From: an uncultured Shinella sp.
GTDB lineage: Bacteria > Pseudomonadota > Alphaproteobacteria > Rhizobiales > Rhizobiaceae
Reading direction: 5' to 3'
NCBI GenBank assembly: GCA_946481465.1
Contig: CAMLOC010000140.1
Span: 1-7,837 of the forward strand
DNA length: 7,837 nt
In this document: one piece after another, positions 1 through 7,837 of the stretch
Position numbering within the stretch: position 1 is the stretch's first letter
Layout of the letters: every line of letters starts with the position of its first letter
Translations under genes and position numbers: made by a program
Notes under the pieces: model-generated
Databases searched by the model: none
What the model saw: only the letters and a program-made list of their open reading frames with translations
What the model was told of the DNA's origin: nothing

Positions 1-1
1 C

Positions 2-790
2 GGCAGCTATACGATCATCGCCCAGACGGCCGCGGAGATGATGGGCGTCGCCATCGACAAGGTGGTCGTGCGCCTCGGCGATTCCCGCTTCCCCGTCTCG
101 TCGGGATCGGGCGGCCAGTTCGGCGCGAACTCCTCGACCTCGGGCGTCTATGCCGCCTGCGTCAAGCTGCGCGAGGCGGTGGCGCGCAAGCTCGGCCTCA
201 ACGCGCAGGACGCCGTCTTCGAGAATGGCGCGATCCGCTCGGGCGACAGGACCATATCCCTTACCGAGGCGGCCGGATCGAAGCCGATTTCGGCCGAGGA
301 CAAGATCGAATGGGGCGACCTTACGGAAACACACCAGCAATCGACGTTCGGCGCGCATTTCGTCGAGGTCGGCGTCGATGCGGCGACGGGCGAGACCCGC
401 CTCCGCCGCATGCTGGCGGTCTGCGCGGCCGGGCGCATCCTCAACCCGATCACCGCCCGCAGCCAAGTCATCGGCGCGATGACGATGGGGGCGGGGGCGG
501 CGCTGTCGGAGGAACTGGTGATCGATACCCGGCGCGGCTTCTTCGTCAACCATGATCTGGCCGGCTACGAGGTTCCCGTCCATGCCGACATCCCCCACCA
601 GGAGGTGATCTTCATGGACGAGACCGACCCGATGTCCTCCCCCATGAAGGCGAAGGGTGTCGGAGAACTCGGCATCTGCGGCGTTTCCGCCGCGATCGCC
701 AACGCCATTTACAACGCCACCGGAATTCGGGTCCGGAGCTATCCCATCACGCTGGACAAGCTCATCGGGGGCCTTCCGGACATCGCCTGA
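2..790 (+). CDS. Molybdopterin-binding large subunit of a PaoC/YagR-like aldehyde oxidoreductase, 3' part only
   Basis: This is the last 262 codons of a large subunit that begins before the window; the frame is open to the left edge, so the internal ATGs at 38 and 41 are not real starts. PaoC-type subunits are about 730 residues, so roughly the final third is present. The fragment opens on the molybdopterin-binding loop GSYTIIAQTAAEMMGV, followed by GSGGQFGANSSTSG and then AAGRILNPITARSQ. The base that activates the substrate in this superfamily is the Glu of GVGELG, encoded at 665-667. The end, PITLDKL plus a short tail, matches the family's normal C-terminus, so the 3' end is intact. In the family this subunit binds the molybdenum cofactor and hydroxylates or oxidises the substrate (aldehydes for PaoC). 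Its [2Fe-2S] and FAD partners presumably lie upstream of the window. It is clearly related to, but quite different from, the large subunit at 2437-4725. Substrate unknown. Confidence -1.
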   Translation, partial: GSYTIIAQTAAEMMGVAIDKVVVRLGDSRFPVSSGSGGQFGANSSTSGVYAACVKLREAVARKLGLNAQDAVFENGAIRSGDRTISLTEAAGSKPISAEDKIEWGDLTETHQQSTFGAHFVEVGVDAATGETRLRRMLAVCAAGRILNPITARSQVIGAMTMGAGAALSEELVIDTRRGFFVNHDLAGYEVPVHADIPHQEVIFMDETDPMSSPMKAKGVGELGICGVSAAIANAIYNATGIRVRSYPITLDKLIGGLPDIA

Positions 791-881
791 ACAGGCGCGC
801 GAGACTTAAACGCAATGCCGCTGCTTGTTTTGCACGCGGCCGATGCAAAGGCGAACGGCGCCATAGCGACAGGAGTGAACG
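791..881 (+). other. 91-base gap before the complete molybdoenzyme operon, with an imperfect inverted repeat
   Basis: This gap separates the upstream large-subunit gene from the [2Fe-2S] gene. It contains an imperfect inverted repeat: GCCGCTGC at 817-824 and GCA-C-GCGGC at 832-840 (one bulged C), with a 7-base T-rich loop. No T-tract follows, so it is a poor intrinsic terminator. I see no convincing -35/-10 pair. The gap could hold a promoter for the downstream operon, or the genes may be read through from upstream; the sequence does not decide. Confidence -1.
871..875 (+). promoter_or_regulatory. Ribosome binding site of the [2Fe-2S] subunit, abutting an in-frame stop
   Basis: AGGAG lies six bases before the ATG at 882. 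The next three bases (876-878) are TGA in the same frame as the gene. The coding sequence therefore cannot be extended upstream, which fixes the start and excludes a longer N-terminus such as a Tat signal peptide. Confidence -1.
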
Positions 882-1448
882 ATGCGGACGCATGACGATG
901 TCTTCCATACACCAGCCGTTTTGCGCGGGAGTGTCGACGTGACGCTGCGGATAAACGGAACGGATATGCAGGTGACGATCGAGCCGCGCACCTCGCTCCT
1001 GGATGCCTTGCGCGAGCGGCTCGGGCTTACCGGGTCGAAAAAAGGCTGCAACCAGGGGGCCTGCGGCGCCTGCACGGTGCTCGTCGACGGCGACCGTGTG
1101 CTCTCCTGCCTGTCGCTCGCCATCCAGATGGAAGGCCGAGAGATCACGACGGTCGAGGGCCTTGAAGGCGATGGCGGACTGCATTCCCTGCAGACGGCCT
1201 TCATCGTCCATGACGGTTTTCAGTGCGGCTATTGCACGCCGGGCCAGCTCTGTTCCGCCATCGGCATGGTCCGCGAATTCCGCGATGGCCTTCCGAGCGC
1301 CGTGACGGGCGACATGAACGCAACGGACATCGAATTCTCCGATGCCGAGATCAAGGAGCGGATGAGCGGCAATCTCTGTCGCTGTGGGGCCTATGTCGGC
1401 ATCTGTTCGGCGATTCGCGAGACTTTCGGGGCAGAGGTGTCGCCATGA
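882..1448 (+). CDS. [2Fe-2S] iron-sulfur subunit of a molybdenum hydroxylase (PaoA/YagT-like)
   Basis: This 188-residue protein has the two [2Fe-2S] domains of the xanthine dehydrogenase family. The plant-ferredoxin-like N-terminal domain carries C56, C61, C64 and C76 (GCNQGACGACTVLVDG, then LSC). The C-terminal helical domain carries C115 and C118 (FQCGYCTPGQ) plus C166 and C168 (SGNLCRCGAY). By family knowledge it relays electrons from the molybdenum centre to FAD. The start is fixed by AGGAG at 871-875 and an in-frame TGA just before it. E. coli PaoA is longer because it carries a Tat signal; here the N-terminus (MRTHDDVFHT) has no twin arginine, hydrophobic stretch or signal cleavage site, so a cytoplasmic enzyme is inferred. 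Its stop overlaps the next start by four bases (ATGA), indicating translational coupling with the FAD subunit. Confidence -1.
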   Translation: MRTHDDVFHTPAVLRGSVDVTLRINGTDMQVTIEPRTSLLDALRERLGLTGSKKGCNQGACGACTVLVDGDRVLSCLSLAIQMEGREITTVEGLEGDGGLHSLQTAFIVHDGFQCGYCTPGQLCSAIGMVREFRDGLPSAVTGDMNATDIEFSDAEIKERMSGNLCRCGAYVGICSAIRETFGAEVSP

Positions 1449-2437
1449 AGGACTTTTCCTATGCGCGCGCCGAAGGCGTCGAGGATGCGGTCCGCATGAT
1501 GGCGAGAACGCCCAATGCCCGGTTTCTCGCAGGCGGGACCAATCTCGTCGATCTGATGCGGGAGAATATCGAGCAGCCCGAGGCGCTCGTGGACGTCTCC
1601 ACGCTGCCGCTCGGCGAGATCGAACGGCATGCGGATGGCGGGCTTTCGATCGGCGCCACGGTGCGCAACACCGCACTCGCCGGCCACGCCGCCGTTCGGC
1701 GAGACTATCCGTTCCTCGCCCAGGCCGTGCTGTTCGGCGCGTCCGGGCAGATTCGCAACATGGCGACAGTCGGCGGCAATCTGCTTCAACGCACACGCTG
1801 CGCCTATTTTTACGACCTTGCCGCCTGCTGCAACAAGCGCGAGCCCGGCAGCGGTTGCGACGCGATCGGCGGCTTCAACCGCATGCATGCCATACTCGGC
1901 GCGTCCGACCGCTGCATCGCCGTACATCCTTCCGATCTCTGCGTGGCGCTGGCGGCGCTGGATACGACCGTGAGCGTGATGGGGCCTGACGGCGGCCGCA
2001 CCATCCCCTTCGCCGATCTCCATCGCTTGCCGGGCGAGACGCCGCATGTCGAGACCGCGCTCGCACCCGGCGAGCTCATCACGGGCATCCGGATCGCACC
2101 GCTCGGCTTCGCGCGCAATTCGCTTTACCGCAAGGTCCGCGACCGGGCGAGCTACGCCTTCGCGCTCGTCAGCGTTGCCGCTGCCCTGGATGTGAAGGAC
2201 GGCAAGGTCGCGGGCGTGCGCCTCGCGCTGGGCGGCGTCGCCCATAAGCCGTGGCGCGCGGCGGAGGCCGAACGCATCCTCATCGGCGGCGATGCCGGAC
2301 GGGCGCAGTTCGAGCGCGCCGCCGAGGCGGAACTCGCGCAGGCGCGCGCCTTCGAGCACAACGCCTTCAAGATCGAGCTGGCGCGCCGCACCATCGTCGG
2401 CGCGCTGACGGAACTGGCCGAGCAGGGAGACGCCTGA
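1445..2437 (+). CDS. FAD-binding subunit with a PaoB-type extra iron-sulfur cysteine set
   Basis: A 330-residue FAD subunit of the molybdopterin-dehydrogenase FAD-binding (CO dehydrogenase medium subunit) family. I chose the ATG at 1445 because it overlaps the previous stop, has AGAGG seven bases upstream, and gives the typical N-terminus MKDFSYARAEG. FAD-binding motifs are AGGTNL (29-34) and the region around IRNMATVGGNLLQRTRC (103-119). Between the two halves lies an insertion with C119, C128, C129, C138 and C157 (RTRCAYFYD, CCNKREPGSGC, SDRC). This matches the segment that holds a [4Fe-4S] cluster in E. coli PaoB, so a cluster is likely here too, although which four cysteines bind it is inferred. 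A typical CO-dehydrogenase-type C-terminal domain follows. Its role is to collect electrons from the Fe-S subunit and hand them to an acceptor. Its stop overlaps the large-subunit start by one base (TGATG). Confidence -1.
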   Translation: MKDFSYARAEGVEDAVRMMARTPNARFLAGGTNLVDLMRENIEQPEALVDVSTLPLGEIERHADGGLSIGATVRNTALAGHAAVRRDYPFLAQAVLFGASGQIRNMATVGGNLLQRTRCAYFYDLAACCNKREPGSGCDAIGGFNRMHAILGASDRCIAVHPSDLCVALAALDTTVSVMGPDGGRTIPFADLHRLPGETPHVETALAPGELITGIRIAPLGFARNSLYRKVRDRASYAFALVSVAAALDVKDGKVAGVRLALGGVAHKPWRAAEAERILIGGDAGRAQFERAAEAELAQARAFEHNAFKIELARRTIVGALTELAEQGDA

Positions 2438-4725
2438 TGCCGAACATGCGCAAGATCATGGAGACGGTCGCCCGTTTTATCCCCGACGGCGAGCCCGATC
2501 CCCTCATCGGCAAGCACAGCCATGTCAGCCGGCCGGTGGACCGTATCGACGGGCGCCTGAAGGTCACGGGCAAGGCGCCGTTCACCGCGGAATTCGCCAT
2601 CGACGGCCTGACGCATGCGGCGCTCGCCAACAGCACGATCGCCAAAGGACGCATCGCGCGGATCGACCTGTCCGAAGCGCAGGCCGCGCCCGGCGTCGTT
2701 GCCATCCTCACGCATGAGAACGCGCCGCGGCTGAAGCGCCCCTCGCTCCTCAACGTCAACAATGTCGGCAAGGGCGTCGGCAGCAGCGACCTGCCGATCA
2801 TGCAGGACGACGCGATCCACTATGACGGGCAGGCCGTCGCCGTGGTCGTCGCGCAGACGCTGGAACAGGCAGAACATGCCGCATCGCTGGTGCGGGTGGA
2901 GTATGCGGCCGGGACGGCGCGCGTCTCCTTCGACGCGCTGAAAGGCGAGGCGGAAACGCCCTCGGAGGTGCTGGGCGAGGATCCGGAGGTGAGGAAGGGC
3001 GATGCGGAAGCCGCCCTGGCGGCGGCGTCGTTTCAGGTCGACAACGTCTACCGCACGCCGCGCCACAACCACAATGCTCTCGAACCGCATGCCACCATCG
3101 CGCTCTGGGAGAGCGACGACGAGCTGCTGGTCTATGACAGCACCCAGTTCGTCAACGGCACCAAGCACCAGCTTGCCCGCGTCTTCCGCCTGAAGCCGGA
3201 CGACGTGCGGGTGATCTCGCCCTTCGTCGGCGGGGCGTTCGGCGGCAAATGGGCGCTCTGGAGCAACACGGTCCTGTGCGCGGCCGCCGCGAAGATCGCC
3301 GGGCGTCCGGTCAAACTCTTCCTGTCGCGGGAGGGCACCTTCCGCATCATCGGCGGGCGCACGATGGCCGAGCAGCGCGTGGCGCTCGGCGCGGATCGCG
3401 ACGGGCGCTTTACCGCGCTTGTCCACACGGGCACGACGGCGACAACGAGCCATGCGAACTTCCCCGAGCAGTTCTCGCTGCTCGCGCGCCACCTTTACGA
3501 CACCGAAACCAAGCTGATCGGCCAGAAGGTCTTCAATCTCGACACGGTGGCCAACACCTGGATGCGTGCGCCGGGCGAGGCCATGGCGACCTTCGCGCTG
3601 GAATCGGCGATCGACGAGCTCGCCCACAAGATGGGGATCGATCCCATCGAGCTGCGCCGGATCAACGAGCCGGAAAAGGACCCCACGAAGGGAACCGCGT
3701 TCTCCAGCCGCAACCTTCTCGAAGCCTACAGGCGCGGCGCGGAGAAATTCGGCTGGTCCGGCCGTTCGGCCGAGCCGGGAACGCGCCGCGACGGCAAATG
3801 GCTGATCGGGCAGGGGGTGGCGACCGCCTACTACCCGGTCTTCCGGTTTCCGGCGACGGTGCGCGTGCGTCTTGATGCCGACGGCAGCGCGCTGGTGCAG
3901 GCCGCGGGAAGCGAGATGGGGATGGGCACCGCGACGGCGCAGATCCAGCACGCCGCCGAACGGCTCGGCCTGCCGATGGACAAGGTATCGTTCGAATACG
4001 GCGATTCCGCCCTGCCGGATTCGGCCGTCACGGCGGGCGGATCGAGCCAGACGGCCACCATTATGGCCGCGGTGCAGCCGGCGGTGGAAAAGCTGCACAA
4101 GAAGCTGATGGCGCTCGTTACGGACGATTCGCCGCTGGCCGGCGCCAACGACGTCGAGGCGCGCGACGGCGGCCTCTACAGGGTCGGCGAGAGCGGCGCG
4201 GGCGAGAGCTATGCGGCGATCCTCCAGCGGGCGGGCCAAGCCTATCTGGAAGTGGAGGCGAGTTCCTCCATGCCCATGGAGACGATGAAATATTCGATGG
4301 CCTCCTACGGCGCGCAGTTCTGCGAGGTGCGGGTCAACGCGGAAACCGGCGAGCTGCGCGTCTCGCGATGGCTCGGCTCCTTCGACTGCGGCCGCATCAT
4401 CAACCCGAAGACGGCGGCCAGCCAGTTTCGCGGCGGCATCATCATGGGCATCGGCATGGCGCTTTCGGAGGAAACCCAGTTCGACGATCGGCGCGGCCGG
4501 ATCGTCAACCGGTCGCTTGCCGAATACCATATCCCCGTCCATCTCGACGTGCCCGACATAGAGGTGATCTATACCGACATCCCTGACGCGCTGATGCCGC
4601 TCGGCGCACGCGGTGTCGGCGAGATCGGCATCACGGGCACCGCGGCGGCGATCGCCAACGCGGTCTTCAATGCGACCGGCAAGCGCATCCGCGACCTGCC
4701 GATCACCTTGGACAAGCTGCTCTGA
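2437..4725 (+). CDS. Molybdopterin-binding large subunit of the same enzyme (aldehyde oxidoreductase / xanthine dehydrogenase family)
   Basis: A complete 762-residue catalytic subunit. The ATG at 2437 is preceded by AGGGAG at 2424-2429 and overlaps the FAD-subunit stop. The N-terminal a/b-hammerhead domain begins near HVSRPVDRIDGRLKVTGKA (residues about 29-47). Family landmarks then follow in order: GGAFGGK (265-271), RAPGEA (377-382), the molybdopterin loop GSEMGMGTATAQ (491-502), GGSSQTAT (534-541), and the catalytic Glu729 within GVGEIG. The C-terminus PITLDKLL is normal for the family. The length and all core motifs indicate an active enzyme. It should bind a molybdenum cofactor and form a heterotrimer with the two preceding products. 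Sequence alone does not give the substrate; aldehydes or N-heterocycles are the usual choices. No XdhC/PaoD-type cofactor-insertion chaperone lies in the window, although such proteins usually accompany these enzymes. The gene ends nine bases before the convergent xthA. Confidence -1.
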   Translation: MPNMRKIMETVARFIPDGEPDPLIGKHSHVSRPVDRIDGRLKVTGKAPFTAEFAIDGLTHAALANSTIAKGRIARIDLSEAQAAPGVVAILTHENAPRLKRPSLLNVNNVGKGVGSSDLPIMQDDAIHYDGQAVAVVVAQTLEQAEHAASLVRVEYAAGTARVSFDALKGEAETPSEVLGEDPEVRKGDAEAALAAASFQVDNVYRTPRHNHNALEPHATIALWESDDELLVYDSTQFVNGTKHQLARVFRLKPDDVRVISPFVGGAFGGKWALWSNTVLCAAAAKIAGRPVKLFLSREGTFRIIGGRTMAEQRVALGADRDGRFTALVHTGTTATTSHANFPEQFSLLARHLYDTETKLIGQKVFNLDTVANTWMRAPGEAMATFALESAIDELAHKMGIDPIELRRINEPEKDPTKGTAFSSRNLLEAYRRGAEKFGWSGRSAEPGTRRDGKWLIGQGVATAYYPVFRFPATVRVRLDADGSALVQAAGSEMGMGTATAQIQHAAERLGLPMDKVSFEYGDSALPDSAVTAGGSSQTATIMAAVQPAVEKLHKKLMALVTDDSPLAGANDVEARDGGLYRVGESGAGESYAAILQRAGQAYLEVEASSSMPMETMKYSMASYGAQFCEVRVNAETGELRVSRWLGSFDCGRIINPKTAASQFRGGIIMGIGMALSEETQFDDRRGRIVNRSLAEYHIPVHLDVPDIEVIYTDIPDALMPLGARGVGEIGITGTAAAIANAVFNATGKRIRDLPITLDKLL

Positions 4726-4734
4726 TCGCCTGCG

Positions 4735-5517
4735 TCATTGCGAGGGCGCTTCGAGCTCGATCATCACCGGCGCATGGTCGCTGGTATGGTCCCAGCCGCG
4801 CGGCGTGCGGCGGACGCTCGCCTTGCGAAGCCAGAGCGCCAGCGCCCGGCTGAGAAGCAGGTGGTCGATGCGCAGGCCTGCATCCCGCTCGAAGGAATTG
4901 CGCCAGTATTTCCAGAAGGTGTAGATGCGTTCGTTCGGATGCAGGTGCCGGATAGCATCGGTCCAGCCTTGGGCCAGCAAATCGGCGTAGGCTTCTCTCA
5001 CCTCCGGCCGAAACAGCGCGTCGTCGCGCCAGCGCTCCGGTGCATAGACGTCGAGATCGGTCGGCATGACGTTGAAATCCCCAATCAGCGCCACGGGAAG
5101 ATCAAGCGAGAGCAGGTCGGCCGCATAGGTCTGGAGACGCTCGAACCAGCGCAGCTTGTAGTCGAATTTCGGGCCGGGCGCCGGATTGCCGTTCGGCAGG
5201 TACAGGCAGCCGATCAGGATGCCGTCGACAGCGGCTTCGATATAACGTCTGTGGCTGTCGTCGGAATCGCCGGGCAGGCCGCGACGCGTCAGGATAGGGG
5301 TTGCCTCCCTGGCGAGGATCGCGACACCGTTCCAGCTTTTCTGCCCATGCCAGACCGCCTCGTATCCCATTCGCTCAAGGTCGCGCCGGGGAAAGCGCTC
5401 ATCCGGCGACTTGAGCTCCTGCAGGCAGACGATGTCGGGCGCGTCCTGTTCCAGCCATCGCAGAAGGACGGGAAGCCGGGCGTTGATGCCGTTGACGTTG
5501 TAGGTGGCGAGTTTCAC
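4735..5517 (-). CDS. xthA: Exodeoxyribonuclease III / AP endonuclease (ExoIII family)
   Basis: A 260-residue endonuclease/exonuclease/phosphatase-fold enzyme. In the family it cuts DNA 5' of abasic sites and removes nucleotides or blocking groups from 3' ends in base excision repair. Visible active-site residues, given with E. coli ExoIII counterparts where I know them, are: N7 (ATYNVNG), E34 (LQELK, metal ligand), Y106 (LYLPNG), D147 and N149 (GDFN), D218 (RIDHLL), and D247-H248 (SDHAPV, general base). The start is GTG at 5515-5517, giving VKLATYNVNG, the standard N-terminus, with GGAG seven bases upstream (5525-5528 on this strand). The open frame continues another 44 codons upstream to an ATG at 5649, but that extension (MQWQGNMPCE...) does not fit the family. 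The gene converges on the molybdoenzyme operon and diverges from a small cysteine-rich gene. High confidence in family; whether it is the main AP endonuclease of the cell is unknown. Confidence -1.
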   Translation of the reverse strand: MKLATYNVNGINARLPVLLRWLEQDAPDIVCLQELKSPDERFPRRDLERMGYEAVWHGQKSWNGVAILAREATPILTRRGLPGDSDDSHRRYIEAAVDGILIGCLYLPNGNPAPGPKFDYKLRWFERLQTYAADLLSLDLPVALIGDFNVMPTDLDVYAPERWRDDALFRPEVREAYADLLAQGWTDAIRHLHPNERIYTFWKYWRNSFERDAGLRIDHLLLSRALALWLRKASVRRTPRGWDHTSDHAPVMIELEAPSQ

Positions 5518-5524
5518 GAAGCTG

Positions 5525-5528
5525 CTCC
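5525..5528 (-). promoter_or_regulatory. Ribosome binding site that selects the GTG start of xthA
   Basis: GGAG on the minus strand lies seven bases before GTG (5515-5517). Together with the conserved KLATYNVNG N-terminus, it favours the GTG start over the in-frame ATG 132 bases further upstream. Confidence -1.
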
Positions 5529-5571
5529 GGGCGCGGCGATGGTCCGAGGGGAAACCGTCCCGGAATTTCAA

Positions 5572-5594
5572 AGGTTCCCCGCGCTTTTGAACCT
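5572..5594. repeat. Inverted repeat AGGTTC-N11-GAACCT upstream of xthA
   Basis: Perfect six-base arms at 5572-5577 and 5589-5594 lie about 55 bases before the xthA start in the divergent intergenic region. It may be a protein-binding site or chance. It does not fit the usual alphaproteobacterial LexA box, which is a direct repeat GTTC-N7-GTTC, and no T-tract follows, so it is not a terminator. Confidence -1.
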
Positions 5595-5654
5595 CCAAGG
5601 ACGTGTGCGGCAAGATGCTCTCGCAAGGCATGTTTCCCTGCCATTGCAAAGATT

Positions 5655-5678
5655 TTGAGCGCTCCTATCTGTGCTCAA
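5655..5678. repeat. Inverted repeat TTGAGC-N12-GCTCAA, possible operator before the small cysteine-rich gene
   Basis: Six-base arms at 5655-5660 and 5673-5678 end 20 bases before the ATG at 5699. The repeat overlaps the only weak promoter-like match I could find for the plus strand (TTGCAA at 5644-5649, 16-base spacer, TATCTG at 5666-5671). A regulator bound here could block that promoter. Both the promoter and the operator are tentative. Confidence -1.
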
Positions 5679-5698
5679 GATCGTTGGAGACGACCGCG

Positions 5699-5950
5699 AT
5701 GAAGACAATTCCCATCGGTACCCTTTTTGACCCCGCCGCCGAGATCATGCTGCCGCACCGGTGCGACCACGCTGCCCGAACTACAGCTGCGTGCATCTGT
5801 TGCGGGCAGGCAGGTCAGGCGATGGACGATGACGGCTGCGGCATCTGCGATGCCTGCCTCGATGCGCCGCTTCAGGCGACCGGCAGTCCTGACGGCCTTG
5901 ATTTCCCCAATGCCTTTCCCCATCTATCGCTCACTGCCCGTCAACGATGA
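5699..5950 (+). CDS. Small cysteine-rich protein, probable zinc-ribbon-like fold, function unknown
   Basis: An 83-residue protein. The ATG at 5699 has GGAG nine bases upstream and begins the plausible N-terminus MKTIPIGTLF; the frame is open to an ATG at 5603, but that extension has no comparable support. Seven cysteines occur at 22, 32, 34, 35, 47, 50 and 53. C32-x2-C35-G (CICCG) and C47-x2-C50 or C50-x2-C53 (CGICDAC) are spaced like the two knuckles of a zinc ribbon, with an acidic DDD turn between them. There is no signal peptide or membrane segment. I do not recognise a named family. It diverges from xthA across 181 bases and is followed by a hairpin. Zinc binding is inferred from spacing only; a DNA-repair link would rest on neighbourhood alone. 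Confidence -1.
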   Translation: MKTIPIGTLFDPAAEIMLPHRCDHAARTTAACICCGQAGQAMDDDGCGICDACLDAPLQATGSPDGLDFPNAFPHLSLTARQR

Positions 5951-6000
5951 ACTGCCTGCAGCGACGATATCCGTCGCGCGTTCGCAATCATCCGGGTCGG

Positions 6001-6032
6001 AAGGGCGCTCCCCGAAAGGGTCGAGCGCCCTT
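6001..6032 (+). terminator. Strong hairpin, likely terminator between convergent transcription units
   Basis: AAGGGCGCTC (6001-6010) pairs perfectly with GAGCGCCCTT (6023-6032). Inside, CCC-GAAA-GGG (6011-6020) can extend the stem and close with a GNRA-type tetraloop, leaving a two-base TC bulge. On the plus strand it is followed by CATCATTT, a weak T-run, and it lies 50 bases after the stop of the small cysteine-rich gene. On the minus strand it lies 34 bases past the stop of the 65-residue ORF but has no T-tract there. A plus-strand or bidirectional terminator is the best reading. Confidence -1.
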
Positions 6033-6066
6033 CATCATTTCGGGAAGGGGTCGCCGCAGGGTACGG

Positions 6067-6264
6067 TCACACGGATCGCCGCGAGCGCCAGGTTCCAGCC
6101 TTGTCCCTGACCAGCCGCCAGCGGCGCGCATCGACATCCGTGCCGCGGGCCGTGCGATAGGCCGGGACGGAAAGATGAATGTCCTCCCCATCAGGATGCC
6201 ATTCACCTATCATGGCGATCCCGTCGCCGAACTCGACCACACATGCCTTCCGCAGCTTCGGCAT
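6067..6264 (-). CDS. Possible small 65-residue protein downstream of the SRAP gene
   Basis: The frame encodes 65 residues starting MPKLRKACVVEFGDGIAMIGEW, with a soluble, tryptophan- and arginine-containing composition that looks like real protein. Codon use supports coding: G or C is frequent at third positions (about three quarters) and much less so at second positions, as in the neighbours. It begins 57 bases after the SRAP stop in the same frame and on the same strand, so it could be a second cistron. The ribosome site is poor: one GAGG directly abuts the ATG and another lies 11 bases upstream. I recognise no family and see no signal peptide or membrane segment. The alternative is non-coding sequence between SRAP and the hairpin. 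Confidence -1.
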   Translation of the reverse strand: MPKLRKACVVEFGDGIAMIGEWHPDGEDIHLSVPAYRTARGTDVDARRWRLVRDKAGTWRSRRSV

Positions 6265-6321
6265 CCTCGACGCGGACCTCGCCGCCCGGAAAGGCGTGAC
6301 TATGCGGGAAAGAAAAGCGCA

Positions 6322-6912
6322 TCAGCCGACTTGCTCCAGGGAAAGGGAGCCGGCCGGGAGCGGCTTGATCAGCGACTTGGCAGACACGGACGGATCGAGC
6401 CAATCCGCCCAGGCATCACGCTCGAGGATGACGATCTGCCGGTCGTGATAAGGGGCGATATCGGGACCGGGCGGCATGGTCAGCATGGTGAAGGCCTCGC
6501 CGACCTCGTCGGTCGCGCGCCAGATGCCGGCAATGGCGAAGATCGGCTCTCCGAGCTTGCGAAACAGCCATTTGTCTTTGCGCTTTTTCCCTTTCTCGAC
6601 CGGTTCGGTGAACTCGTAGAACCCGTCCGCCACGATAAGGCAGCGGTTCGAGGCGAAATCGCGGCCCTCCGAACGAAAGTTGTAAACCGGCTTCTTAGTC
6701 GGGCTTGGCCAGCTCCAACGACGCTGGACAAGCTCGCCAACCCCGCGTTCGCCGTCTACCGTGCGAACGATCGGCGCCGTATCGGTGATCTTGATATCCT
6801 CGCGCGCCGCGATGTTCGGCCGACCCTCCGGAAAGCGAATTTTGATCTTGAGGTGCTCGAAGTTTTCGATGACCGAGTCCAGTTCGACCATCAGCCTGTA
6901 GTCGTTGCACAT
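6322..6912 (-). CDS. SOS response-associated peptidase (SRAP) family protein, YedK/HMCES-like abasic-site cross-linker
   Basis: A 196-residue SRAP-domain protein. In the family, Cys2, exposed after removal of Met1, forms a stable thiazolidine cross-link with abasic sites in single-stranded DNA and protects them at stalled forks. All key positions are visible: C2 (MCNDYR), N78 and R80 (PVYNFRSEG), E100 (VADGFYEF), and H156 (APYHDRQIVIL). The start at 6912 is chosen because it puts Cys at position 2 and follows AGGAGG with four bases spacing. A longer in-frame ATG at 7008 would bury the catalytic cysteine and must be wrong. The protein is slightly shorter than E. coli YedK (222), ending soon after the PLPAGSLSLEQV segment, without loss of an active-site residue. 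It lies downstream of the DinB-containing frame on the same strand, with xthA nearby, which suits a DNA-damage role. I find no GTTC-N7-GTTC LexA box upstream. Confidence -1.
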   Translation of the reverse strand: MCNDYRLMVELDSVIENFEHLKIKIRFPEGRPNIAAREDIKITDTAPIVRTVDGERGVGELVQRRWSWPSPTKKPVYNFRSEGRDFASNRCLIVADGFYEFTEPVEKGKKRKDKWLFRKLGEPIFAIAGIWRATDEVGEAFTMLTMPPGPDIAPYHDRQIVILERDAWADWLDPSVSAKSLIKPLPAGSLSLEQVG

Positions 6913-6916
6913 GGTC

Positions 6917-6922
6917 CCTCCT
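6917..6922 (-). promoter_or_regulatory. Strong ribosome binding site of the SRAP gene
   Basis: AGGAGG on the minus strand lies four bases before the ATG at 6910-6912. It confirms the start that leaves Cys at position 2. Confidence -1.
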
Positions 6923-6926
6923 GCGG

Positions 6927-6944
6927 CTCGGCCATATCTCGGCC
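6927..6944. repeat. Direct repeat CTCGGCC-ATAT-CTCGGCC just upstream of the SRAP ribosome site
   Basis: Two exact seven-base copies (6927-6933 and 6938-6944) sit 11 bases apart start to start, about one helical turn, in the 96-base gap between the DinB-containing frame and SRAP. This spacing would suit two protein contacts on one face of the DNA, but in GC-rich sequence chance is quite possible. A weak -10-like TACATT on the minus strand lies just upstream, with no matching -35. Confidence -1.
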
Positions 6945-7008
6945 TCGCAGTAATGTAGCGCGGGTGCCGCAGATTTCGATGCGGTTGGCCAAGCCAATTG
7001 ATGATCAC

Positions 7009-7512
7009 CTAGATCTCGAAGTGGAGTTGATCGTCCGGGCCACGCGCGAGGTCGTCGGAAAAGGAAGACAGGGTGACGCCGAGGAGCCGGATGCCTTTCG
7101 CCGTCGGGAACAGAGGGTCGAGGAGTGTCTGGACCGTCGCTACGATTTCATCCTGCGATCCGAACGAGGCGGCTTCGGTCCGGCTCCGCGTAATGATCTG
7201 GAAGTCGGCATACTTCACCTTCAGGGTGACGGACCGACCGTGCAGGCTTTTGGCCTCGCAGTGCCGCCAGACCTTGTCGACAAGCGGGGGAATCTCGGCG
7301 CGGGCTCTATCAGCGTCGAAGATATCCGTCATGAACGTGTCCTCAGCGCCGACCGACTTGCGCACGCGATCCGGCCGGACCGGTCGATCGTCGATGCCGC
7401 GGGAGATGTTGTAGTACCAGGCGCCCGACTTGCCAAAATGCTCCTGCAAGTAGGCCAGTGACTTCGATCGCAGGTCACCGCCCGTCAGGATGCCGAGCTG
7501 CTTCATCTTCTC
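7009..7512 (-). other. dinB: DinB-derived portion: thumb and little-finger domains of DNA polymerase IV
   Basis: This part corresponds to roughly the last 165 residues of a polymerase IV of about 350 residues. It includes the thumb, with a helix-hairpin-helix-like LGILTGGDL, and the whole little finger, which in the family contacts DNA, plus the terminal clamp-binding position (QLHFEI, compare the QLxLxL type). The frame is uninterrupted and residues look conserved, with no stop codons or frameshifts, so it has not decayed. That points to a recent join or a misassembly rather than an old pseudogene. Its place just before SRAP suggests that the native locus held a full dinB. Confidence -1.
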
Positions 7513-7837
7513 GAACAGGGTGCGTTCGATCCTGATCAGCTCGTCGGGTTTCAGGAGCGAGGTGTTCGTCCGGAACGCGCGGGTGTGATCGATGAGCCAC
7601 AAGGTCCAGTCCTTCGTCCACAGGACGTTGCCCCTGTTGCGGTCCCGGTTCTGGATCAGCTCGTCCCAGACGCGCATGATGTGAATCTGCCGCTGCGTCC
7701 GCTGCGGATCGGGCCCCATCATCGCGGTGTCGCCCAGCTTCATGCGCCCGCTCTCGTCGAACATCACGTCGTCGATCCACCAGGTGACGGCGGCCTGCTT
7801 GCCTTTGTAGCGGCGTTCCACCGACATCGGCACCGTG
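7009..7837 (-). CDS. Chimeric reading frame: kinase-like C-lobe joined to the C-terminal part of DNA polymerase IV (5' end outside window)
   Basis: The frame is open to the right edge, so the gene starts beyond the window; the GTG at 7833 is only the first start-like codon seen, and residues below are numbered from it. Residues 1-107 resemble the C-lobe of an uncharacterised kinase-like family: WWIDD (18-22), MRVWDEL (53-59), the catalytic-loop-like DRNRGN (64-69), and the metal-site-like IDHTRAF (81-87). Residues 108-274 are DinB: thumb (LGILTGGDL, YLQEHFGKSG, SRGIDDRPVRPDR), linker (RKSVGAEDTF), little finger (DKVWRHCEAKSL, GRSVTLKVKYADFQ, KGIRLLGVTLSSF), and a C-terminal clamp-motif-like QLHFEI. 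The palm and fingers with the catalytic carboxylates are absent, so this frame cannot encode an active polymerase. The two parts meet at EKMKQL (108-113). It may be a real fusion, a recombined pseudogene, or an assembly join. Confidence -1.
   Translation of the reverse strand, partial: TVPMSVERRYKGKQAAVTWWIDDVMFDESGRMKLGDTAMMGPDPQRTQRQIHIMRVWDELIQNRDRNRGNVLWTKDWTLWLIDHTRAFRTNTSLLKPDELIRIERTLFEKMKQLGILTGGDLRSKSLAYLQEHFGKSGAWYYNISRGIDDRPVRPDRVRKSVGAEDTFMTDIFDADRARAEIPPLVDKVWRHCEAKSLHGRSVTLKVKYADFQIITRSRTEAASFGSQDEIVATVQTLLDPLFPTAKGIRLLGVTLSSFSDDLARGPDDQLHFEI
7513..7837 (-). other. Kinase-like C-lobe portion, origin foreign to dinB
   Basis: The translated motifs resemble the catalytic and metal-binding segments of PI3/PI4-kinase-like folds (D-R-x-x-x-N followed by I-D-x-x-x-x-F): DRNRGNVL and, 11 residues later, WLIDHTRAF. 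Similar uncharacterised proteins are, as I recall, common in Acidobacteria and related soil bacteria, where they are single-domain proteins; this placement is from memory. The N-lobe would lie outside the window. The substrate and even true kinase activity are unknown. Confidence -1.

Follow-up and report, generated by a model that had tools for sequence, protein, structure and literature searches.

The window analysed here, a stretch of 7,837 nucleotides from a contig assigned to an uncultured Shinella sp. (CAMLOC010000140.1), ends in a minus-strand open reading frame (ORF, 7009-7836) that appears to fuse a kinase-like segment to the C-terminal part of a DinB-type DNA polymerase IV. We judge this apparent fusion, with a probability of about 90%, to be an artificial chimera arising from an assembly misjoin and not a real feature. 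The halves are 100% identical to two different full-length proteins (108/108 and 168/168 residues), which is far beyond chance, and they meet at a short stretch that both parent genes seem to carry.

Two parents of one reading frame

The ORF, whose residues we number from its start at the window end, is open through the junction to a stop at 7009, and its 5' part runs off the window. Pfam assigned IMS_C (PF11799, 81.4 bits) and the DinB-type thumb helix-hairpin-helix (PF21999) to its C-terminal part and found no palm domain (PF00817), so that of the combination by which we recognise DinB (PF00817, thumb and little finger) the palm is missing. In the N-terminal part it reported HipA_2 and PI3_PI4_kinase, both under their curated cut-offs. 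This agrees with an initial annotation of the letters, which had read a kinase-like N-terminus followed by a DinB thumb and little finger without the palm. The same annotation placed the switch at EKMKQL; the site is confirmed, although the segment is slightly wider, FEKMKQL, encoded by 21 bases at 7495-7515 on the minus strand (TTCGAGAAGATGAAGCAGCTC). The window ends 322 bases past this stretch.

On the polymerase side, ORF residues 108-275 (7009-7515, minus strand) are identical over 168 of 168 residues to the C-terminus of P0121, a complete 374-residue DNA polymerase IV which does carry PF00817. Its cluster has three member sequences and occurs intact on nine contigs, the longest of 38,104 bases. 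A search with ORF residues 109-275 gave 120 listed matches, some of them fragments, which form our DinB set; after P0121 the next is P0122 (86%), and the best organism-labelled relatives among those listed are Shinella proteins, with up to 84% identity. Compared with Y-family polymerases of the DinB type, the window ORF thus has thumb and little finger and lacks palm and fingers, which are lost at the junction. With foreign sequence in their place, the ORF as it stands cannot encode a polymerase.

On the kinase side, ORF residues 1-108 are identical to the 280-residue protein P0001 (108/108) and the first mismatch is residue 109. A search with residues 1-114 yielded 2250 matches, the best 24 of which are 280-residue proteins with 94-99% identity; the best 120 form our kinase set. 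Thirteen of these, P0002-P0014, are 97-99% identical to the query, and one of them, P0011 (97%), is the sole organism-labelled protein of the 120, its label being Vicinamibacterales (Acidobacteriota). Precomputed Pfam annotation of the 120 contains no DinB domain and assigns Fam20C (PF06702) to ten. On sequence comparison, the DNA beyond 7515 is shown to encode part of an unrelated, kinase-like protein of Vicinamibacterales type: 7516-7837 (minus strand) encodes residues 113-219 of the Fam20-like kinase, truncated by the window end, and P0001 matches ORF residues 1-107 without a difference. P0001 and P0002, at 99% the nearest kinase relatives, come from contigs 5255 and 1470 bases long, and the window encodes neither in full.

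The two sides thus point to different organisms, and for each an intact parent gene is known (P0011 at 97%, Vicinamibacterales; P0121 at 100%, with Shinella relatives). The initial annotation had proposed searching the halves separately, and the outcome, two phyla (Acidobacteriota by one named relative, and a Shinella-like DinB) with full-length parents known, speaks against a true fusion.

Comparison with Shinella plasmids locates the break at the same place. NZ_CP131133.1 is collinear with window positions 4716-7513 (79.8% over 2833 alignment columns), and all three plasmid records compared cease to align at the DNA level at 7509-7513. In each of the three plasmids looked at, dinB is full-length and has a helicase gene directly upstream. 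For the two compared in register, identity in the 18-codon block adjoining the junction is 70-72% inside dinB and 24-33% beyond it, and all blocks beyond the junction lie at 22-48%. In the plasmid collection, 7492-7837 had no DNA match. Window positions 4716-7513 are thus shown to be DNA of Shinella-like (Rhizobiaceae) type, whose dinB should continue into the palm domain.

Searching for the same fusion in independent sequences, another check put forward with the initial annotation, did not find it. The whole ORF, compared with 5.8 billion proteins, had 5793 matches, and the best 120, as listed, reach no more than 61% coverage and include no homologous fusion. Any further copy of the fusion should score higher than a match to one half, and the low coverage among the top matches tells against such copies. 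None of 425 matching plasmid records covers 80% of the ORF, and no relative was confirmed among viral contigs, in a scan able to reach only close ones.

The probable shared stretch and the origin of the join

We propose that an assembler working with short k-mers (k of about 21) may have walked from dinB into the kinase gene at a stretch of 20-22 bases carried by both, and on this account we predict no actual fusion protein. The shared codons are read alike in the two genes, which keeps the frame open across the join, and the absent stops are for this reason no evidence of function. The earlier conclusion that a lack of stops makes the join recent or functional does not follow, as codons shared in frame give an open frame anyway. 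A biological event would have to be very recent, since neither flank of the junction shows an amino-acid change.

FEKMKQL is the longest peptide that P0121 shares with any protein of the kinase set, where 21 of 120 carry all seven residues and 57 carry KMKQL only. Among the 120 listed DinBs it occurs in P0121 alone, and four share six residues with the kinase P0008. The commonest form at this site is GVGPATAAKMERLGIL (60/120), at odds with the initial annotation, which had taken GPATAEKMKxLGI to be common in DinB; half of the listed relatives thus read AAKMERL where P0121 reads FEKMKQL, and F(D/E)KMKQL prevails in the kinase family. Neither of two Shinella dinB sites checked at the junction codons carries the stretch. 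It is so a probable coincidence, this DinB happening to carry letters that part of the kinase family carries.

By codon logic, the parents could have no more than 22 bases in common, because a DinB threonine faces a kinase leucine on one side and a DinB glycine faces a kinase threonine on the other; by this reckoning the maximum would be just enough for k=21. Residue 109 is aspartate in P0001 and P0002, which otherwise match ORF residues 1-114, whereas the window and P0121 have glutamate there, as has P0008, a kinase that differs from the window at two further positions. With Glu109 in the kinase allele of the sample, the shared stretch would span 20-22 bases.

Several points weigh against a misjoin. 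Should the allele in the sample have Asp109, the exact shared stretch would be only about 14-15 bases long, less than k=21 needs; that the two genes share DNA here is itself deduced from protein matches together with the window. The 20-mer occurs in none of 396 Acidobacteriota genomes, whereas its reversed control occurs once each in nine of them, though the best kinase homologue there is only 50% identical. The synonymous-codon score also fails to set the kinase fragment apart. We rejected codon usage as a marker of a foreign piece, the score of -0.766 lying within the range of -1.03 to -0.69 of sliding stretches of the other window genes; GC content at third codon positions is 0.935 in the kinase piece versus 0.801 in the DinB half. 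Further, the parts of the literature on metagenome assemblers considered here describe chimeras between similar species (PMC8171044) or, for simulated viral sets, chimeric contigs at all taxonomic levels that tend to join close relatives (PMC3901335). As far as these accounts go, inter-species chimeric contigs resemble our case in that two genomes are joined at a common sequence and each side matches its own source, and they differ in being mostly between similar or close species, whereas here the parents are of different phyla and would have only about 21 bases in common.

A laboratory chimera, that is, a chimeric product of amplification or ligation likewise helped by the shared stretch, would look like a misjoin in the sequence, with a short shared stretch between halves that are unrelated to each other and identical to their parents. 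A single chimeric molecule, though, rarely dominates an assembly, and we consider this origin improbable.

Still less probable is natural illegitimate recombination at the microhomology of about 20 bases, by which a piece of an Acidobacteriota kinase gene entered the dinB of a living Shinella-like cell and inactivated or remodelled it. Joining at microhomologies is known in general, and the open frame would suit it; yet it would need a transfer between phyla without amino-acid change on either side (108/108, 168/168) and a second, intact version of the recipient gene elsewhere (P0121), it has no second occurrence among the 120 listed of 5793 matches, and it would delete the catalytic palm. Were it true, the cell would hold an in-frame fusion with a Fam20-like kinase part and a killed polymerase. 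The initial annotation had offered two explanations, a short-k-mer misjoin and microhomology recombination, both resting on about 18-20 bases common to the parents; this holds up, with the misjoin strongly favoured.

A functional kinase-DinB fusion kept by selection has the open frame in its favour and is hardly credible, given that no homologous fusion stands among the same 120 matches, that the junction removes the polymerase palm and fingers and, in the predicted model, truncates the kinase ahead of its last helices, and that neither half has diverged from its separate parent.

An assembly misjoin of this kind carries a warning: a clean in-frame fusion without stops can be an assembly chimera if the two genes share a stretch and its reading frame, and automated pipelines could record from it a kinase-polymerase architecture, or a transfer between phyla, that does not exist.

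Predicted fold and family of the kinase parent

The kinase parent is a more interesting object than the fusion. The predicted model of P0001 has a mean predicted local distance difference test (pLDDT) score of 73, with weak stretches that include residues 135-151 and 179-182. Fam20 chains ranked top for this model in both Foldseek and VIA-align 2, and the protein is accordingly predicted, from the model, to have the Fam20 kinase fold. The description in the initial annotation as PI3/4-kinase-like is fair at the level of fold, the nearest fold being Fam20.

P0001 scores 19.5 bits with the Pfam family Fam20C, below the cut-off of 26.8, while 30 of 52 members of its family match Fam20C at E <= 0.01. 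Identity to Fam20 secreted kinases is about 15% in the fold alignment, and kinase activity is putative. A search with the kinase alignment against the sequences of solved structures in PDB gave no match at E <= 1; only the fold comparison gave matches. Besides Fam20, we count HipA_2, PI4KII and TIGR03843 (the SCO1664 family) among the closest known kinase systems, the last matching the kinase parent with 37 bits against a cut-off of 172.4.

Fam20-like relatives were found in 75 of the 396 sampled Acidobacteriota genomes at E <= 1e-20. In searches for the DNA of the kinase parent, no listed match in 38 genomes of its class and 396 of its phylum exceeds 50% identity, and a scan of genome contigs returned one locus, at 52%. 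Literature searches found nothing combining Fam20, bacterial, kinase-like and Acidobacteria, and none of the titles seen is devoted to this family. SCO1664 does have a mention in the portion of the literature covered.

Neighbouring genes

Downstream of dinB in its direction of transcription, the window holds, all on the minus strand, a gene for an SOS response-associated peptidase (SRAP; 6322-6912, PF02586, E 3e-23), a small hypothetical gene and one for exodeoxyribonuclease III (xth; 4735-5520, TIGR00195, 249.3 bits, cut-off 182.55). This agrees with the order in Shinella zoogloeoides NZ_CP086612.1, where a helicase gene is followed by full-length dinB, its neighbour SRAP, two hypothetical genes, DUF1810 and, in the same cluster, xth. 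Shinella sp. HZN7 (NZ_CP015742.1) has another order, with integrase genes after dinB, and the match to the xth part lies at a different place on that plasmid. A literature search combining Shinella, dinB, imuB and plasmid found nothing.

The small hypothetical gene 3' of SRAP (6067-6324, minus strand) is shifted in frame relative to its Shinella zoogloeoides counterpart by a two-base length difference inside the gene, and is either a pseudogene or a sequence error. On the plus strand, positions 1-4725 hold the C-terminal part of a PaoC-like molybdopterin subunit and then a second, complete set of iron-sulphur, flavin adenine dinucleotide and molybdopterin subunits of the PaoABC/XDH type; none of these aldehyde/xanthine dehydrogenase genes reaches an NCBIfam cut-off. 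The best plasmid DNA matches of this region are alphaproteobacterial, with Azospirillum at 68%, Sinorhizobium at 72% and, for about the first 790 bases, Shinella at 84%.
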